A stretch of 39,393 bases of DNA from an uncultured Spirochaetia bacterium. GTDB lineage: Bacteria; Spirochaetota; Spirochaetia; JABEVK01. Positions 27,449-38,333 of the stretch are shown here, piece after piece (position 1 is the first letter of the stretch; each line of letters begins with the position of its first letter). The notes below the pieces were generated by a model, which worked only from the letters and a program-made list of their open reading frames with translations, made no database searches and had not been told where the DNA came from. A program made the translations under genes and the position numbers. Location: the NCBI GenBank assembly GCA_937960645.1, contig CALGPJ010000003.1:1-39393 (forward strand), read 5' to 3'.

Positions 27449-29824
27449 TCAAAAACAGACTCGGTTTCGTCCTTCCTGTTTGGCCTTGTAGAGAAGGTTG
27501 TCGGCGCGCTTGAGGAGGGACTCGTCGGTATCCTCCTTTTCGAAGCCGGCAACACCGAAACTGGACGTTACCCTGCCCAGCCTGGGGATCTCCGTGGTCT
27601 CGATTTGGACACGAATTTTTTCGGCGAGGATCGCGGCGTTCTCTTTGGGAGTTTCGGGAGCGATGATCAAAAACTCCTCGCCGCCCCAGCGCCCCAGGAC
27701 GTCGGATTGGCGTAGTCGCTGCTGCACGCTCAAAGCGACGGTCTTGAGAACCAGGTCCCCGGCGTCGTGCCCAAAGTTGTCGTTGTAGTTTTTGAAATGG
27801 TCGATGTCCATCATGATGATCGAAAAGGGGCTCCCGTACCGTCGGGCGCGGTAAACCTCGGCCTGGAGCCGTTGGGCGGTGTACCGTCGGTTATAAATGC
27901 CCAATAACCCGTCCGTAACCGCAAGCTGCTCCAGTTTTTTCTCCATCTCCTTGTACTTGGTGACGTTGATCGCATAGTGGAGGTAAACATCGGTTCCCAG
28001 AGGAATCCACCACACGTCCCAAAACGTCCCGTCGATTTCGATGAGCTCGTTCCGTTTTTGTTGAAAACTGAGACTGTATTCCGATTGACAGAAGCTGCAG
28101 TGTGTGGGTCTTGCCCCCGTATCCAGGGAACCCGGTACTGTCCTGGCCTTGCAATGTTGGATGGCGCTCCAGCAAAAATCCCCAACGCTCGTGCGAAACT
28201 CTTCCGATGCAGCCTTGTTCTGGAGGATGATTCGCCTTTCCTTGTCCAAAAGCCAGGCCGGAGATACCAGGCCTTCGATAAACAGCCCCATGGTTCGGTT
28301 GTGCTCGAGGATTTCCTGCTCGTAGCGCTTGCGTTCGGTGATGTCGTTGATGATGATGTGCACCGTTTCGGTTCGGCCCTCCACAACCACGGGGGAGGTT
28401 CTGACCTGCATCCAGATCTTTTTTCCCCAGATGGTCTCGTATTCCCGCTCCAGGTTTTTGGGAATTTGGTTGTCGATCGAATCTTCCAGCTCCTGGGCGA
28501 TGCCGTACTCTCGCAGGCGTGGCAACGTTAAAAGGTTTAGGCGTTTTGTAGCCTCGGCCCCCGGAGAGCCCAGGATGGTGAGAGCTGCCTGATTCACATA
28601 GAGGATGTTTCCCCGGTTGTCACTTTTGAGGATGCCCACGGGCGCGTTGTCGGCCAGGCTGGTGTACTCTTTGAGGCTGTGCTCGATTTCGGCGAGCAGC
28701 CGGTGGCGTTCGCTTTGGTCGCGGGCAACCATGATGGTGAAGTGGTGACTGCCGACTTTCAAGGAGTTGCAGGAGACTTCCAGATTCAACGTGTCGCCAT
28801 TTCGGTTGGTATAAACCATCTCCCGGATGGCGGCCTGCCCTTCCCGCGAATCTCCGGAAATGATGGGAAATTTTTCCTTCAATCCCTCGAGATCGGCTTC
28901 GGCAGGAAACAGGAGCCTGACCAGGTTTTCCCCCAGGGCTTCCTCGCGCGAAATGCCGAAAATCGCTTCCGACCTCTTGTTCCAGAGCACGATGGACTCA
29001 TCCTGGCTGATGACCACCGCCTCGTTCAGGTCATGCAGCAGGGCGGCATAGAGGGAATTGGTGACTTCAAAATCCTGCTTCAAATTTTTAAGGATCGTTA
29101 AATCCTGGCCGACAGCCAAAAAATACGGTTCATTTTTGAACCAGAACTTTTGCAAGATGATGTGAACGGGGTAAAGGGACCCGTCCTTTCGTCGATGCAG
29201 GGTCTCGAATGGGACCTCTTGCCGTTGGCCACTCAGCAAGGAATCCAAAATGTCATGAAAAGAAGAGACCTGGAACTCGGGCTTGATGTCCAGGGGCGTG
29301 AGCTGTTGGATTTCCTCGAGCGTGTAGCCCAGGTTATTCAGTGCCGATCGGTTGACCTCGACGAAGTGGAGATCGTCTTGCCGAAAAAGATAAAGCTCGG
29401 CTCCGGCGCGATCGAACAAATTTTGAAACATCACGGCCCAATCGGACTGCTGTTTCATACGCCGCGCCAGGTCGATGACGGTGAGCATTACCTCGGCATT
29501 GGACCCCTTGGGGATAAAACTGTAAGCCCGAACCTGTCGAACCTTTTCCATCACCTGCTGATAGGTGTTGGCGGACAGAAAAACCACGGGATAGTCCCAA
29601 CGCTCGTTGATAATCCGGGTTGTTTCCACCCCGTCCATTCCGTCTCCAAGTTCGATGTCCATCAAGATGAGCTCCGGCACCAAGCCCCCGTTCAACAACT
29701 CGAGGGCCCTCGGCCCCGAATCGGCAGATCGAACATGAAAACCATGCCTATCGAGGATCTGAGAATAAAGAGCTGTGTTCAGGTCGTTGTCATCGACTAA
29801 AAGAATAATTGGAAGGCCACTCAT
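27449..29824 (-). CDS. REC-PAS(x4)-GGDEF diguanylate cyclase
   Basis: A 791-residue soluble protein. REC domain 1-125 with D11-D12, acceptor D56 (LILMDIELGDGMDG) and K106. About four PAS-like domains follow (roughly 130-250, 260-380, 385-500, 510-620). The last holds four Cys: C551, C558, C576 and C579, a C-x6-C-x17-C-x2-C arrangement that could bind metal or sense redox. The C-terminal GGDEF domain has the active motif GGEEF (714-718) and the inhibitory site RQSD (705-708), five residues upstream, so it should make c-di-GMP with product feedback. A phosphorelay input from a kinase elsewhere, perhaps the hybrid kinase at 21552, is inferred. Confidence 0.92.
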   Translation of the reverse strand: MSGLPIILLVDDNDLNTALYSQILDRHGFHVRSADSGPRALELLNGGLVPELILMDIELGDGMDGVETTRIINERWDYPVVFLSANTYQQVMEKVRQVRAYSFIPKGSNAEVMLTVIDLARRMKQQSDWAVMFQNLFDRAGAELYLFRQDDLHFVEVNRSALNNLGYTLEEIQQLTPLDIKPEFQVSSFHDILDSLLSGQRQEVPFETLHRRKDGSLYPVHIILQKFWFKNEPYFLAVGQDLTILKNLKQDFEVTNSLYAALLHDLNEAVVISQDESIVLWNKRSEAIFGISREEALGENLVRLLFPAEADLEGLKEKFPIISGDSREGQAAIREMVYTNRNGDTLNLEVSCNSLKVGSHHFTIMVARDQSERHRLLAEIEHSLKEYTSLADNAPVGILKSDNRGNILYVNQAALTILGSPGAEATKRLNLLTLPRLREYGIAQELEDSIDNQIPKNLEREYETIWGKKIWMQVRTSPVVVEGRTETVHIIINDITERKRYEQEILEHNRTMGLFIEGLVSPAWLLDKERRIILQNKAASEEFRTSVGDFCWSAIQHCKARTVPGSLDTGARPTHCSFCQSEYSLSFQQKRNELIEIDGTFWDVWWIPLGTDVYLHYAINVTKYKEMEKKLEQLAVTDGLLGIYNRRYTAQRLQAEVYRARRYGSPFSIIMMDIDHFKNYNDNFGHDAGDLVLKTVALSVQQRLRQSDVLGRWGGEEFLIIAPETPKENAAILAEKIRVQIETTEIPRLGRVTSSFGVAGFEKEDTDESLLKRADNLLYKAKQEGRNRVCF

Positions 29825-29921: not shown

Positions 29922-30109
29922 ACGAGGATTCCTCACTTCGTTCGGAATGACATTGAAGAATGTCATTCCAACTTGCGAAGCAAGGAGGAACCTTCTCGAA
30001 CCTGCGAAGCAGGTGAGAGATCTTCTCGCTACGCTCGGGAAAGGTCCCTCGCTACGCTCGGAATGACAAGGGGCGTTCGGAATGACATAATTCGTTCGGA
30101 ATGACATAA
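29922..30109. repeat. Dispersed hairpin-repeat array, copy B
   Basis: This fills most of the 303-base gap 29825-30127, which has no gene. It is a chain of small hairpins: GGAATGACATT-GAAG-AATGTCATTCC (29944-29969, perfect 11-bp stem), CTTGC-GAA-GCAAG (29972-29984) and ACCTGC-GAA-GCAGGT (30000-30014). Then CTCGCTACGCTCGG occurs twice (30025-30038, 30048-30061), and GTTCGGAATGACATAA twice (30075-30090, 30094-30109). Positions 29962-29999 are an inverted copy of 91-128. It resembles the GGAATGACA-type intergenic repeats scattered in many genomes. Its role is unknown. Confidence 0.85.
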
Positions 30110-30116
30110 AATGTGC

Positions 30117-30122
30117 TAAGAT
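30117..30122 (+). promoter_or_regulatory. Putative -10 of Nudix-TPR operon
   Basis: TAAGAT lies five bases (GGGTC) before the ATG at 30128. TTCGGA at 30095-30100, inside the last repeat unit, is a poor -35 at 16 bp. If used, the repeat array supplies part of the promoter. Confidence 0.35.
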
Positions 30123-30127
30123 GGGTC

Positions 30128-30991
30128 ATGGGAATCGACGTTGTTTGCGGCATTTTTCGAGAAAATGGTAAATACCTCATTGCACGACGGCCGCAAGACG
30201 CCGACCTGGGGGGATTTTGGGAATTTCCGGGAGGCAAGGTCAAGAAGGGGGAAAATCACCCGGAGGCCCTCCAACGGGAGATTTACGAAGAGCTGCGGGT
30301 TCGGTGTCAGGTGGGGGAAAAGTTGGGGGAGTCCGTCGTTCATCAGCCCTCGGGCGATGTGGTCCTGACGGCTTACGAGGCTGAACGTTTGAGCGGCAAA
30401 TGGACCTTGAACTTTCACTCGGAAATCCGCTGGGTCGAAGCTCAGGAACTCAGGGCCTACCAAATGGCACCTTTGGACCTTCCCTTCATCGACATGATCC
30501 TGATGCGTCAATGGCCGATTCGTTTGAAGGACGCTCTTGCCCTCAAAGATCAGGGACGAATCGAGGAGGCCATCGATCTCTTGTACAAACTCGGGGACCA
30601 AAATCCTGGCGTCGGAATGATTTACTATTACCTGGGAACCTTGCTGGGGGAGGCGAACCGCGACGACGAATCCCTCGTTGCCTACGAAAAGGCCATCGCG
30701 GGTGACCTCAAGGGGAGCACTCGCCAGCAGGTCTACATGGGTTTGGTGTTTAGCTACTGGCAGCGGGGGCTGTACCAACGTGGTGCCGATGCGGCCAGCA
30801 AGGGCCTTTCCGAGTTCCCCGAGGCCATGGATTTACGGCTCGGCCTGGCCATGAATCGATTTGGCCAGGGGAATCATGAAGAAGCCTTCAAAACGGTGTT
30901 GGAGCTTCTGGCACAGACCTCGGAGCACCCCGACATCCAGCTCTATCGGGATGCCCTCCTCTACTATTTGGAGCACTGGAAGCCGTCATGA
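30128..30991 (+). CDS. Nudix hydrolase (MutT-like) fused to TPR domain
   Basis: A 287-residue fusion. Residues 1-130 are a MutT-type Nudix domain: GIFRENGKYLIARRPQDADL, GGFWEFPGGKVKKGE, with the Nudix box G-x5-E-x7-REIYEEL complete. Residues about 135-287 are helical TPR-like repeats (LKDQGRIEEAIDLLYKL, MIYYYLGTLLGEANRDDESL, MGLVFSYWQRGLYQRGADAA, LALALNRFGQ-like LGLAMNRFGQGNHEEAFKTV), resembling the TPR_5 type. A stand-alone MutT ends near residue 130, so the TPR part is an added interaction module. A GTG at 30113 is a less likely start. Its stop overlaps the GGDEF-EAL gene (ATGA), so it probably works with that protein. Confidence 0.85.
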   Translation: MGIDVVCGIFRENGKYLIARRPQDADLGGFWEFPGGKVKKGENHPEALQREIYEELRVRCQVGEKLGESVVHQPSGDVVLTAYEAERLSGKWTLNFHSEIRWVEAQELRAYQMAPLDLPFIDMILMRQWPIRLKDALALKDQGRIEEAIDLLYKLGDQNPGVGMIYYYLGTLLGEANRDDESLVAYEKAIAGDLKGSTRQQVYMGLVFSYWQRGLYQRGADAASKGLSEFPEAMDLRLGLAMNRFGQGNHEEAFKTVLELLAQTSEHPDIQLYRDALLYYLEHWKPS

Positions 30992-33087
30992 ATACGACCG
31001 CCTTTTTTATCGAGGTCGGTATCCGGAGTGTCTATCTGGGCATTCTGCTCGTGGTAGTCTTCGTGTACACGCTCGCCCGCATCCTGAGGGAACGAAGGGT
31101 GTCCCGTTCCACCTATTATTTTTCGTTGATTGCCACGCTGGCGCTTGTCCTGGATTTGGCCGTATTCATCGCCTCGTACTGGAACAACGATGGGCAACTC
31201 GCCGCTTACTTCAATCTTTTTTATGAGTTATCCATTTTTTTGTTCATCCCCGGAATATTGAATTACGCCGGTGAGTTCATGGACGCTGAATCCCGTGCGC
31301 AGAAATTGATGAAAAAATTGACCCTGGGCTCCCTGATACTGATGCTGATAGCCATCGGGGCCGGTTTAATTTGGCCCTCACTCATCGTTCAACTCCGTGA
31401 GCCCTGGCTGGCTGCCCGTCCCTGGAACATTGGCCGCGGCCTCTACGGCATTCTTACGAGGGTACGTGATGTCGTCGCCTTTCTCTGTCTGGTGTTTCTT
31501 GCGGTGGTGGCCATCCAGCAAAGCCGCCATGTCGGGGATAAAAAGTACCATCTCATTCTCCTGGGGGGCATCCTGGCAAACTTCGTCTTTGTCTTCGATG
31601 CCGTCTATGCCAATGCAAGCCTGTCTTACTTTTTTTTCCCCTCGATTCCCTATCCTCGATTTTTCAGCGGAATCATGATCTTCCTGTTGGTGAGCGTCTG
31701 CCTGGATTTGATTCGTTTCATCGAAAAGGCCATGGCCATGGATCGCACCCTCGAGGAATTGAAGTCTTCCCAGGAAAAGCTCGTGGTCCTTGCCTACTAC
31801 GATTCCCTGACGGGCCTTCCCAACCGCAAGAGTTTCTTCGAAAAAATCGAGATGCTCTGTCTGGAAAACAGCCGCGAGCCACGGGTGATGGCTTTGATGT
31901 TCCTGGATCTCGATTTGTTTCGCATCGCCAACGAGACCTTGGGCCATTCCGGCGGTGATAAGTTGATCCGAGAGGCCGTTTTCAGAATTCGCCAATCCTT
32001 GAGATCGAGCGATCTTCTTTTCCGTCTGGGCGGAGATGAATTCATGCTCATCCTGACAGGGTTGAACAGCGCCTCGGATGCGGGTCTGGTTGCTCAAAAA
32101 CTACTGGGTTTAATGGCAGAACCTTTTGAAATCGACCTGATGACCATCCATCTTTCGTTGAGCATTGGCATCAGTGTCATGCCCCGCGATGGCCGTTCCG
32201 GCGACGAGCTCTACCGCAAGGCAGACGAGGCCCTGTCCGATGCAAAGCGCGATCGTAACACATTTCGTTTCTATACCAACGCGCTGAACATCGAAGCGAT
32301 CAAAAAAATCAACATCATCAACACGCTCCGCTATGCGATCAACAACAACCTTTTCGACCTTCACTATCAGCCTCTGGTTGACGCTTCCGGGCAGGTAGTC
32401 AGTGCGGAAGCCCTTATCCGGCTCAAAGACGGCAATTCCTCGATCGGTCCCGATGTGTTCATTCCGGTAGCGGAACATTCCGGACTCATCCAGCCCATCG
32501 GGAACTGGGTACTCCGCCGCGCGATGCAGGATTACGTGGATCTGCTTCAGGATGGATTTTTACCCAGGATTTCTGTCAATCTCAGCCCCCGGCAGCTTCG
32601 GGAAGGAAACTTCTTAACTTACCTGGACGCCCTGGCCAGGGAGTACCGCCTGGATTTCAGCCCCCTCTACCTGGAAATCACCGAGACGGTCTTGCTGGAA
32701 AAAGACGTCATGATCAGTGCGGCCCTCAAGGGTCTTTTCGACCGCGGCGTCTCGCTCGTCATCGACGATTTCGGCACCGGTTTTTCCAACCTCTCCTACA
32801 TCCGAGACCTTCCCCTGCGCGCGATCAAAATCGATCGAAGTTTCATCCAGCCTCTGCGCGATTCCCCCAGGACCGCCAAAATGGTCGCCAGTATCATCAG
32901 CCTGGCCAAGGCCCTGGAGATGATCGTGGTGGCCGAGGGGATCGAGGACGAGTACCAGCATGATTTTGTCTTCCGCAGTGGGGCCGATCTCTGTCAGGGC
33001 TTCTACTACTCGCGGCCCCTTCCCTTGAAGGACTTAAAATCCTATCTTGTAACACACAATAGAAAAAATATGGAGAAAGACGCATGA
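30988..33087 (+). CDS. 7TM sensor GGDEF-EAL protein
   Basis: A 699-residue membrane protein. Seven or so hydrophobic helices (residues 8-245) form a 7TM-type sensor, then a short coiled linker. The GGDEF domain (265-430) has an intact GGDEF (348-352) and I-site RSSD (339-342). The EAL domain (440-690) has EAL (474-476), NLSP, EITE, VIDDFGTG, IKIDRSF and AEGIE, so all catalytic residues are present. Both synthesis and breakdown of c-di-GMP are possible; which dominates cannot be told. It overlaps the genes on both sides by four bases, so the three are made in fixed ratio. Confidence 0.93.
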   Translation: MNTTAFFIEVGIRSVYLGILLVVVFVYTLARILRERRVSRSTYYFSLIATLALVLDLAVFIASYWNNDGQLAAYFNLFYELSIFLFIPGILNYAGEFMDAESRAQKLMKKLTLGSLILMLIAIGAGLIWPSLIVQLREPWLAARPWNIGRGLYGILTRVRDVVAFLCLVFLAVVAIQQSRHVGDKKYHLILLGGILANFVFVFDAVYANASLSYFFFPSIPYPRFFSGIMIFLLVSVCLDLIRFIEKAMAMDRTLEELKSSQEKLVVLAYYDSLTGLPNRKSFFEKIEMLCLENSREPRVMALMFLDLDLFRIANETLGHSGGDKLIREAVFRIRQSLRSSDLLFRLGGDEFMLILTGLNSASDAGLVAQKLLGLMAEPFEIDLMTIHLSLSIGISVMPRDGRSGDELYRKADEALSDAKRDRNTFRFYTNALNIEAIKKINIINTLRYAINNNLFDLHYQPLVDASGQVVSAEALIRLKDGNSSIGPDVFIPVAEHSGLIQPIGNWVLRRAMQDYVDLLQDGFLPRISVNLSPRQLREGNFLTYLDALAREYRLDFSPLYLEITETVLLEKDVMISAALKGLFDRGVSLVIDDFGTGFSNLSYIRDLPLRAIKIDRSFIQPLRDSPRTAKMVASIISLAKALEMIVVAEGIEDEYQHDFVFRSGADLCQGFYYSRPLPLKDLKSYLVTHNRKNMEKDA

Positions 33088-34163
33088 GCATCGCCGCTTA
33101 CGAACAAAAAATCAGGGAGCTACAACACGCCCTGGCCGCTCTCGGGGGGCGCCACACCGAGCTTTTGCAACAAACGGGCAGGCTTTTAGCCGTCCAGGAG
33201 GCTTTCCGGGAGGTACAGGGCTGGGACAGGGCGAACGAGATCTGCCGCGAGCTCGAAGCCATCATGGCCCGAATCGAAACGGTGGAAACCTACCAGAAGC
33301 GTTACCAGCAGGATGCCATGGATTTGGAACACGTCGAGAGGCACCTGAAACAGCTCGAACAGAGGCACCGGGTCGTCCTCACCGAGATCGGGTCTTTGGC
33401 CTATCAGCAGTACAAGGTGGGTAGTGCCCGTCTGTCCCAGCACGCCGCAGCCTTTGCGGAGTTGGAGTCCCTGGAGGAAAAGATCCAACAACGCGAGCGG
33501 CGCCTGGCCGAAACGCGTCAATCCTCCGATGAGGGCTGGATTGGCCGTCTCAAGCTCGGAACGAGCGGGCTGGTGAACAGATTTCAAAACCTTCTGGAAG
33601 AGGGCAGAAGAAAATCGCTTTACCATGAACTGGGAAACGAGATGGTTCGGGTAGGTCTTGCGCAAACGATTTTGGCAAGACAGGACCCCACCGTGTTCGC
33701 AAAATTTCTGGAGGATCTGGACGGTTGGGAGGAAGCCTTTCGACAGAGGGACAGGCTTCGTCAGAGCCTGGAAGATATCAAGGCTCATCCGACCGATACC
33801 GGGTATCCTTTCGCGGCGACGCTTCGAGACCTTCATCGGCTCCAGGCACAGATCGAGGAAAAAAGCCGGGCAATCTTTGGGAATCTTTACCAGAGATGGA
33901 AGGACGGGGGGTACCAGCCGGCTGCCCAGGGGCAGATCGAAGAATTTCGGCGCCAGATCGAAGACATCGAAGGGGATCTACAGCGTTACCGGTCCGATCT
34001 GGAAAAGGCCGAGTGGGGTCTGCGGGGCGCGCGGCTGTTGGAAGAGGCGCACAGAAATCGCGCACGGGGCCAGAAACTGATCGACGAGGGCAATGCCCTG
34101 ATTCAGAAGGCGCAGGCACAGGAGACCGAGGGAAGGGCACTTCTCGAGAAGGCCGAAGCCTAG
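33084..34163 (+). CDS. Coiled-coil protein of unknown function
   Basis: A 359-residue, highly charged, almost wholly helical protein without signal peptide or membrane segment. Long heptad-rich stretches lie at about 1-150 (YEQKIRELQHALAALGG, MDLEHVERHLKQLEQRH, LEEKIQQRERRLAE) and 215-359. A less charged centre (155-215, GRLKLGTSGLVNRFQNLLEEG, QTILARQDPTVFAKFLEDLD) may be a small domain. The C-terminus has repeated E-G-x-A-L-x-x-K-A-type turns. No family recognised. It is coupled to the GGDEF-EAL gene by an ATGA overlap and overlaps the convergent dsbD by four bases. A scaffold role is a guess. Confidence 0.8.
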   Translation: MSIAAYEQKIRELQHALAALGGRHTELLQQTGRLLAVQEAFREVQGWDRANEICRELEAIMARIETVETYQKRYQQDAMDLEHVERHLKQLEQRHRVVLTEIGSLAYQQYKVGSARLSQHAAAFAELESLEEKIQQRERRLAETRQSSDEGWIGRLKLGTSGLVNRFQNLLEEGRRKSLYHELGNEMVRVGLAQTILARQDPTVFAKFLEDLDGWEEAFRQRDRLRQSLEDIKAHPTDTGYPFAATLRDLHRLQAQIEEKSRAIFGNLYQRWKDGGYQPAAQGQIEEFRRQIEDIEGDLQRYRSDLEKAEWGLRGARLLEEAHRNRARGQKLIDEGNALIQKAQAQETEGRALLEKAEA

Positions 34164-36831: not shown

Positions 36832-37489
36832 GGTGAAAGTCTACTCGCTCCCTCGTTCTGTCCGGGGGTTGATCTTCGACCTCGACAACACCCTCTACGA
36901 ACACCCCGACTATGCCCGCGATCAGGTGGAATCCCAAATTGTCCTGTTGGCTCAGCGCTGGAATCGTCTCCCTGCCGAACTTCAACTAGAAATATATCAG
37001 AAGGAGGCCGAGTGGGCCAGAACCCGCGGGGGGCGCCGGCCCAGTTTCGGCAACCTCCTGCAGGATGCTTACGGAATCGACATTGCCGAAAGTGTTCGGC
37101 TGCGGGAAGAGTCCATCCACCCGGAGCGCTGGCTGCGCCCCGATCCTTTGCTTGGGCAGACCCTGCGGGCCTTGCACGACCGATATCGGATGGTGCTGTT
37201 GACCAACAATCCCACCAGCATCGGCCGCCGATCGCTGAAGGCGCTGGGGCTGGAAGATTGCTTCGATGGCGTGGTGGGACTGGAAACCACGCTCAAAAGC
37301 AAGCCCAGCCTCGAACCCTTTTGGGAGGCACTTCGGGTCCTGGGTTTGGAAGCCTCCGAGGTGGTGAGCGTCGGCGATCGGTATGCGGTGGACATCGAAG
37401 TTCCCCTCAGCCTGGGGATGGGCGGAATCCTGGTGGAGGGAGTGGACGACACCCGGCGGCTGGACCAGATCCTTCTGGGGACTAGTTGA
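36830..37489 (+). CDS. HAD-superfamily hydrolase, subfamily IA
   Basis: A 219-residue HAD phosphatase. Motif I is IFDLDNTLYEHPDYA with D17 and D19, the D-x-D-N-T-L-Y form of pyrimidine 5'-nucleotidase-like enzymes; motif II is LLTNNPTS; the lysine lies in TTLKSKPSL; motif IV is VSVGDRYAVDIEVPLSLG. Substrate unknown, perhaps a nucleotide or sugar phosphate. Its last eight bases overlap the convergent MBL-fold gene. A GTG three bases after the ATG is an alternative start. Confidence 0.85.
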   Translation: MVKVYSLPRSVRGLIFDLDNTLYEHPDYARDQVESQIVLLAQRWNRLPAELQLEIYQKEAEWARTRGGRRPSFGNLLQDAYGIDIAESVRLREESIHPERWLRPDPLLGQTLRALHDRYRMVLLTNNPTSIGRRSLKALGLEDCFDGVVGLETTLKSKPSLEPFWEALRVLGLEASEVVSVGDRYAVDIEVPLSLGMGGILVEGVDDTRRLDQILLGTS

Positions 37490-38333
37490 ATACGTAGTAG
37501 GTCCACTGGCGTGCCAGCGAATGGAAGCCCAGGGACTTCACCTTCTCTTCGTTGCGCTCCCAGTCGTCGCCGTAGTGCATCAGAATCATTTTGCTCTTGA
37601 TCGAGGCCGGAAGGTCCTTTAGCTCGTCGATGCTGGCATGCACGCCCCCGGGCGGGAAGAACTGGCAGTCGTGGAATATGTACTCGATGTTGAATCGACT
37701 GCAATAATCGGTAACGAGCTGTGGGTCGAACCGAGTGTCCCCGCTGAAGAGAATGCGGTCGTCCACCACCAGGCCGGTGCTCCAGGAAGAATCCGACCAA
37801 TTGCGAGCGTCGGCAGGGATGTGTTTTGTGCGCATCGCCTTAAATTGGAGGCTTCCCACCTTGAAGCCGTAGGTCTCCCGGGGGTAACCTTCCAGCCAGT
37901 CGGGGCGGTGGATCTCCCAGTGATCGCCAAAGGTGAGGTCCCTACCCTCTACGACATCGTTGAAACTGCACCCCCCCCTCAGGCTCATGTCCCAAAGCAG
38001 GTGCTGGTAAACCTCGGTGATCCAAATGTGGGGCTTTTGCCGAAGCACGTAACGGCTCATGAGCATTACCTCTTCCAGGCCGCCGATGTGATCGGCATGG
38101 GAATGGGTGATGTAAAAATTGCGAATCTGGGTGATGGGTATACCCAGTTCGTAGATGGCCTGGGGGGTCTTGGTGCCACAATCCACCATCAGGTGGTCCT
38201 GCCCCTTGATGATGAGCAAGTTGTTTTGATAGTGCCGCTTGGAAAAGGCGCTTCCCACCCCAACGAAAAAGAACGAAAGCCGCCCATCATTCGAAAGCGA
38301 TAACTTTTTATCCTGAACATCCTGAAGGATCAT
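37482..38333 (-). CDS. MBL-fold metallohydrolase
   Basis: A 283-residue metallo-beta-lactamase-fold protein. The metal motif THSHADHIGG is complete, and further ligands are H in RTKHIP, D in LFSGDTRFD and H in ILMHYGD. FFVGVGSAFSKRHYQNNLLI is typical of the RNase Z/PhnP-like group, but the family is broad and the insert (GGCSFNDVVEGRDLTFGDHW) is unlike tRNase Z, so no substrate is claimed. It has a good promoter six bases before the ATG and no Shine-Dalgarno. Confidence 0.85.
   Translation of the reverse strand: MILQDVQDKKLSLSNDGRLSFFFVGVGSAFSKRHYQNNLLIIKGQDHLMVDCGTKTPQAIYELGIPITQIRNFYITHSHADHIGGLEEVMLMSRYVLRQKPHIWITEVYQHLLWDMSLRGGCSFNDVVEGRDLTFGDHWEIHRPDWLEGYPRETYGFKVGSLQFKAMRTKHIPADARNWSDSSWSTGLVVDDRILFSGDTRFDPQLVTDYCSRFNIEYIFHDCQFFPPGGVHASIDELKDLPASIKSKMILMHYGDDWERNEEKVKSLGFHSLARQWTYYVFN

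Follow-up and report, generated by a model that had tools for sequence, protein, structure and literature searches.

The window, by which we mean the whole 39,393 nt stretch of DNA analysed, is a contig (C3) of a 2.2 Mb draft assembly that is 99% complete (genome G000). It contains three consecutive genes encoding a Nudix protein with a C-terminal TPR tail (Nudix-TPR), a membrane-bound GGDEF-EAL protein and a coiled-coil protein, with the following features:

29931–30106, no strand: upstream intergenic region with clustered TTCGTTCGGAATGACA-type repeats, between a divergent response regulator-PAS-GGDEF gene and the operon
30113–30991, forward strand: Nudix-TPR gene, starting at GTG 30113 or ATG 30128, conserved in genome G001
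30134–30502, forward strand: MutT/NudG-type Nudix domain with box GGKVKKGENHPEALQREIYEELRV, catalytic R55, E56, E59 and E60 kept, glycine replaced by R62
30512–30976, forward strand: four TPR helix pairs and a capping helix (residues 134–288), from an AlphaFold model and a phmmer match to BH0479
30988–33087, forward strand: 7TM-GGDEF-EAL gene, with Pfam GGDEF and EAL domains and an ATGA overlap with the Nudix-TPR gene
30994–31737, forward strand: N-terminal membrane domain of about seven helices that no Pfam family covers, with 31% identity to its G001 counterpart
31792–32256, forward strand: GGDEF domain with RxxD-x5-GGDEF (R339–D342, G348–F352)
32320–33018, forward strand: EAL domain, with E474, N531, E563, D593, D594, K614, E650 and Q670 kept in the window and in G001
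33084–34163, forward strand: coiled-coil gene, with a profile match to an unnamed class-wide four-glycine family

All three open reading frames are real genes, being kept in the same order in G001, the one further genome sampled in the genus (a MAG deposited as Borreliella garinii, evidently a mislabel, from which the phylum is taken to be Spirochaetota), with 56% identity for the Nudix-TPR protein, 50% for the GGDEF-EAL protein and 27% for the coiled coil. This bears out both the three reading frames of the first-pass annotation and the conserved gene order it had proposed to look for in relatives. The start at ATG 30128, which matches that of G001, is likelier than the upstream GTG 30113. 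The four-base overlaps joining the genes were confirmed as ATGA, at 30988–30991 and 33084–33087, and had been taken as a sign of a complex made in fixed ratio. A four-base overlap is also found in another same-strand gene pair of the window (253–1140/1137–1790), and two convergent pairs likewise share overlaps of this length, thus the overlap alone is no argument for assembly in fixed ratio.

In G001 a convergent typA gene adjoins the coiled-coil gene. The upstream neighbours differ between window and G001: the window has directly upstream a divergent response-regulator gene that also encodes PAS domains and a GGDEF domain (27449–29824, reverse strand), which was not seen at the G001 locus, whereas the sequence upstream in G001 probably followed aspS, as judged from a stretch of about 100 bases shared with the end of another contig. 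A G001 contig end (L064, 8001–8186) also carries a second copy of the Nudix gene start which after about 28 residues passes into unrelated sequence, a sign of either an insertion or strain variation in that assembly. The intergenic region 29931–30106 gave no Rfam match, and promoter and terminator scans gave results at chance level. Elsewhere in the window (37482–38333, reverse strand) lies a gene whose product has a metallo-beta-lactamase fold and matches the Anti-Pycsar Apyc1 model (PF23023, 4.3e-39); this protein may be an ordinary phosphodiesterase.

The N-terminal half of the Nudix-TPR protein matched two Nudix models of Pfam above their cut-offs (PF14815, 6.9e-17; PF00293, 1.1e-16). Its Nudix box had been called complete, and the catalytic residues R55, E56, E59 and E60 are indeed all present, but against the consensus GX5EX7REUXEEXGU the window reads GX5EX7REUXEEXRU (EELRV), with the penultimate glycine, retained in both G001 and G023 (a genome of another family of the class), replaced by R62, a change that could alter or reduce activity. 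The closest solved relatives by PDB sequence match are the CTP pyrophosphohydrolase NudG of E. coli, a probable pyrophosphohydrolase (3ees) and mycobacterial MutT2. The best NCBIfam model, for a pyrimidine (deoxy)NTP diphosphatase, scored below its cut-off, and the protein was not filed as NudG, since it reached 101.2 bits on the NudG equivalog (NF007834) against a curated cut-off of 156 bits. As the nearest relatives are of the NudG/MutT2 type, (d)NTP housecleaning is pointed to, and the most likely substrates of the domain, predicted from these relatives, are damaged or non-canonical (d)NTPs. The proposal that it processes a nucleotide related to the c-di-GMP signal fits poorly with this kinship, and the Nudix sequence gave no indication of a c-di-GMP-related substrate such as pGpG. 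A match to the PADLOC defence candidate PDC-S07 was discarded as generic, because this model matches every other Nudix protein tested, including a paralogue in the same genome; it is thus no sign of a defence role. A tree of Nudix domains shows two large groups, with the TPR fusions in one of them and separate from the contig C9 paralogue, and is compatible with a single or a multiple origin of the fusions.

The extra C-terminal TPR domain reported by the first-pass annotation holds up, with TPR_16, TPR_14 and TPR_19 above cut-off in Pfam, a phmmer match of the tail to the TPR protein BH0479, and four helix pairs plus a cap modelled with good confidence by AlphaFold, although the models were built on two-row alignments and in Nudix-TPR only the TPR half is confident. 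Proteins are the usual ligands of TPR domains, which in some cases self-associate or block the enzyme that carries them.

The middle gene matched the Pfam GGDEF (1.5e-40) and EAL (7.8e-61) models. It had been described as a 7TM c-di-GMP enzyme with both active sites intact, which agrees with the catalytic residues and the RxxD site present in the window; in the G001 copy the GGDEF signature reads GGDEL. An AlphaFold model, of poor quality and low confidence, shows seven hydrophobic N-terminal helices, and this membrane domain is less well conserved with G001 than the GGDEF-EAL part. Counterparts of the membrane domain were found in 24 of 248 class genomes, for the most part in open reading frames of about 560–870 residues. 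Thirteen of these loci were examined, with flanks that reached about 1.5 kb at most, and none showed a Nudix-TPR or coiled-coil gene. The window's genome has 16 GGDEF domains in all.

The coiled-coil protein matched no Pfam family, and a PDB search with its profile gave partial matches of a generic coiled-coil type, which were set aside. It is a member of an unnamed family found across the class, the members of which share four near-invariant glycines spaced about 70–80 residues apart (G32, G103, G184 and G266 in the window, with codons at 33177, 33390, 33633 and 33879). Searches with a two-sequence and then a seven-sequence profile detected full-length relatives in about 26 class genomes. The window protein scored 61.7 bits (E 2.6e-18) against a profile of 25 loci built without the window or G001, a match that is not fully independent since most of these loci had been picked with a profile including the window; as a control, the window and G001 proteins were shuffled by heptad blocks, and the highest score among 400 such shuffles was 11.5 bits. 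The neighbours of the family's genes vary, and include mltG with a DbpA-type helicase and a metallo-beta-lactamase hydrolase, rarA, and a gyrB-like gene. No GGDEF-EAL or Nudix-TPR gene was found at the family loci outside the window's genus, G023 having been found separately. At two loci (L073 and L074, in G372 and G332) the coiled-coil gene lies between rarA and a gene for a 170-residue protein without a Pfam match, which at L074 shows a four-base overlap beside the coiled-coil gene.

Full-length Nudix-TPR proteins were found in only three genomes (G000, G001 and G023) in searches of 393 genomes of the phylum and then 278 of the class, the latter set including G023; few candidates were scored per genome, so that very divergent copies could be missed. 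A search of plasmid sequences gave no full-length Nudix-TPR protein. All three genes adjoin a coiled-coil gene of the family or lie one gene away from it, and Nudix-TPR proteins are therefore not commonly found alone. The first-pass annotation had named common occurrence alone, or a gene order not kept even in close relatives, as speaking against its proposal, and neither applies outright.

The third genome came from a search with a TPR-only profile, which beyond the genus matched strongly in G023 alone, the weak matches elsewhere looking like ordinary TPR proteins. In G023 a serB-like gene and dgkA precede Nudix-TPR (288 aa), which is followed by the coiled coil (343 aa) and convergent typA, with no GGDEF-EAL gene between or beside the pair; of the 15 GGDEF domains of this genome, the nearest on the same contig is >30 kb off. 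The Nudix-TPR protein aligns end to end with that of the window (29% over 287 residues, E 3e-40), and the coiled coil scored 51 bits (E 2.3e-14) against a family profile built without G023, the window and G001. Since G001 and G023 each have a convergent typA directly after the coiled-coil gene (64% identical), the two loci correspond. The adjacency of the pair in G023 without GGDEF-EAL supports the pair, rather than the trio, as the conserved unit, and so gives no support to the c-di-GMP enzyme as an original member of the proposed three-protein complex. The simplest reading is that in the window's genus the GGDEF-EAL gene was inserted between two genes that had been a pair before, although with one outgroup a loss in G023 would be as cheap. 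In two genomes of the window's family (G002, L009 607–1932; G004, L014 601–1878) a single gene encodes a fusion of a MutT-like Nudix domain with a cysteine-synthase-type PLP enzyme (PF00291); in G004 this gene has dgkA as a neighbour, like the Nudix-TPR gene of G023.

The reading we favour, with about an even chance of being correct, is that of a two-gene housecleaning core to which a c-di-GMP enzyme was added in one genus. The core would consist of a nucleotide pyrophosphohydrolase of the MutT/NudG type that carries a tail of four TPRs, acting on damaged or non-canonical (d)NTPs, and a coiled coil of the class-wide family, which may serve as scaffold or localiser. Because TPRs usually bind proteins, and with the precedent of CheR-TPR, we propose that the tail docks the Nudix enzyme onto the neighbouring coiled coil. 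In the window's genus the membrane-bound bifunctional c-di-GMP enzyme would have been inserted between the two, and in the window it would be translationally coupled to both neighbours. A functional link of c-di-GMP to the pair is possible, as a secondary matter and in this genus only. The stronger version, an undescribed housecleaning module in which a coiled-coil scaffold positions the Nudix enzyme, and which in one genus has come under membrane c-di-GMP signalling or been coupled to it, seems to us rather unlikely.

The linkage behind the two-gene core rests on few independent events, with three genomes carrying Nudix-TPR, and the most serious alternative, somewhat unlikely in our view, is an operon of convenience, in which the genes are co-transcribed in one genus and have separate roles in housecleaning, membrane signalling and structure, with no complex formed. 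Most members of the coiled-coil family lie beside unrelated genes, relatives of the 7TM-GGDEF-EAL protein have neither partner in the nearest 1.5 kb or so, the genome has 16 GGDEF domains, and unrelated genes of the window also share short overlaps, all of which speaks for such an operon; it accounts less well for a Nudix-TPR/coiled-coil adjacency that is kept in two families despite low sequence identity, or for a TPR tail implying a protein partner. The three-protein complex originally proposed, with Nudix processing a c-di-GMP-related nucleotide and the TPR and coiled-coil parts docking, agrees with the conservation and tight packing of the trio in the two species of the genus that were sampled and with the retention of both c-di-GMP active sites in the window, but we consider it improbable, given the pair without GGDEF-EAL in G023, a Nudix domain resembling NudG/MutT2 and not any c-di-GMP-pathway enzyme, and a searched literature in which no paper links the components. 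A tail that serves to regulate or oligomerise its own Nudix enzyme, with the coiled coil a mere neighbour, is very improbable; this reading has a precedent in the CheR-TPR protein FrzF, where TPR removal was reported to increase the methylation sites (PMC3447774), but leaves unexplained why all three Nudix-TPR genes sit near the coiled-coil family.

The locus is a new arrangement of known parts, not a demonstrated new signalling system, and no described Nudix-TPR/c-di-GMP system was found in the literature searched. The comparison with a second family takes the signalling enzyme out of what seemed a fixed three-part system and leaves Nudix-TPR and the coiled coil as a testable pair, which, if the two bind, would exemplify the tethering of a housecleaning enzyme to a scaffold protein, and it places the coiled-coil gene of the window in a class-wide family without a Pfam entry.

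Among known systems, CheR-TPR fusions such as WspC (PMC3447774) resemble Nudix-TPR in being small enzymes extended at the C-terminus by a TPR domain, and are encoded in signalling clusters, which often contain a GGDEF output; WspC-type proteins are methyltransferases of chemosensory arrays, whereas the window encodes a Nudix enzyme in an operon without any chemosensory-array gene. The GGDEF-EAL protein has the domain order, catalytic residues and RxxD site of other membrane-sensor GGDEF-EAL proteins, and differs from these in its membrane domain of ~250 residues without a Pfam family and in the position of its gene between Nudix-TPR and coiled coil. The Nudix fold and catalytic glutamates are common to NudG (2RRK), MutT2 (5ZRC) and the window protein, and so is the box apart from its penultimate glycine, which is arginine in the window; where NudG and MutT2 are single-domain enzymes the window protein adds a four-TPR tail.
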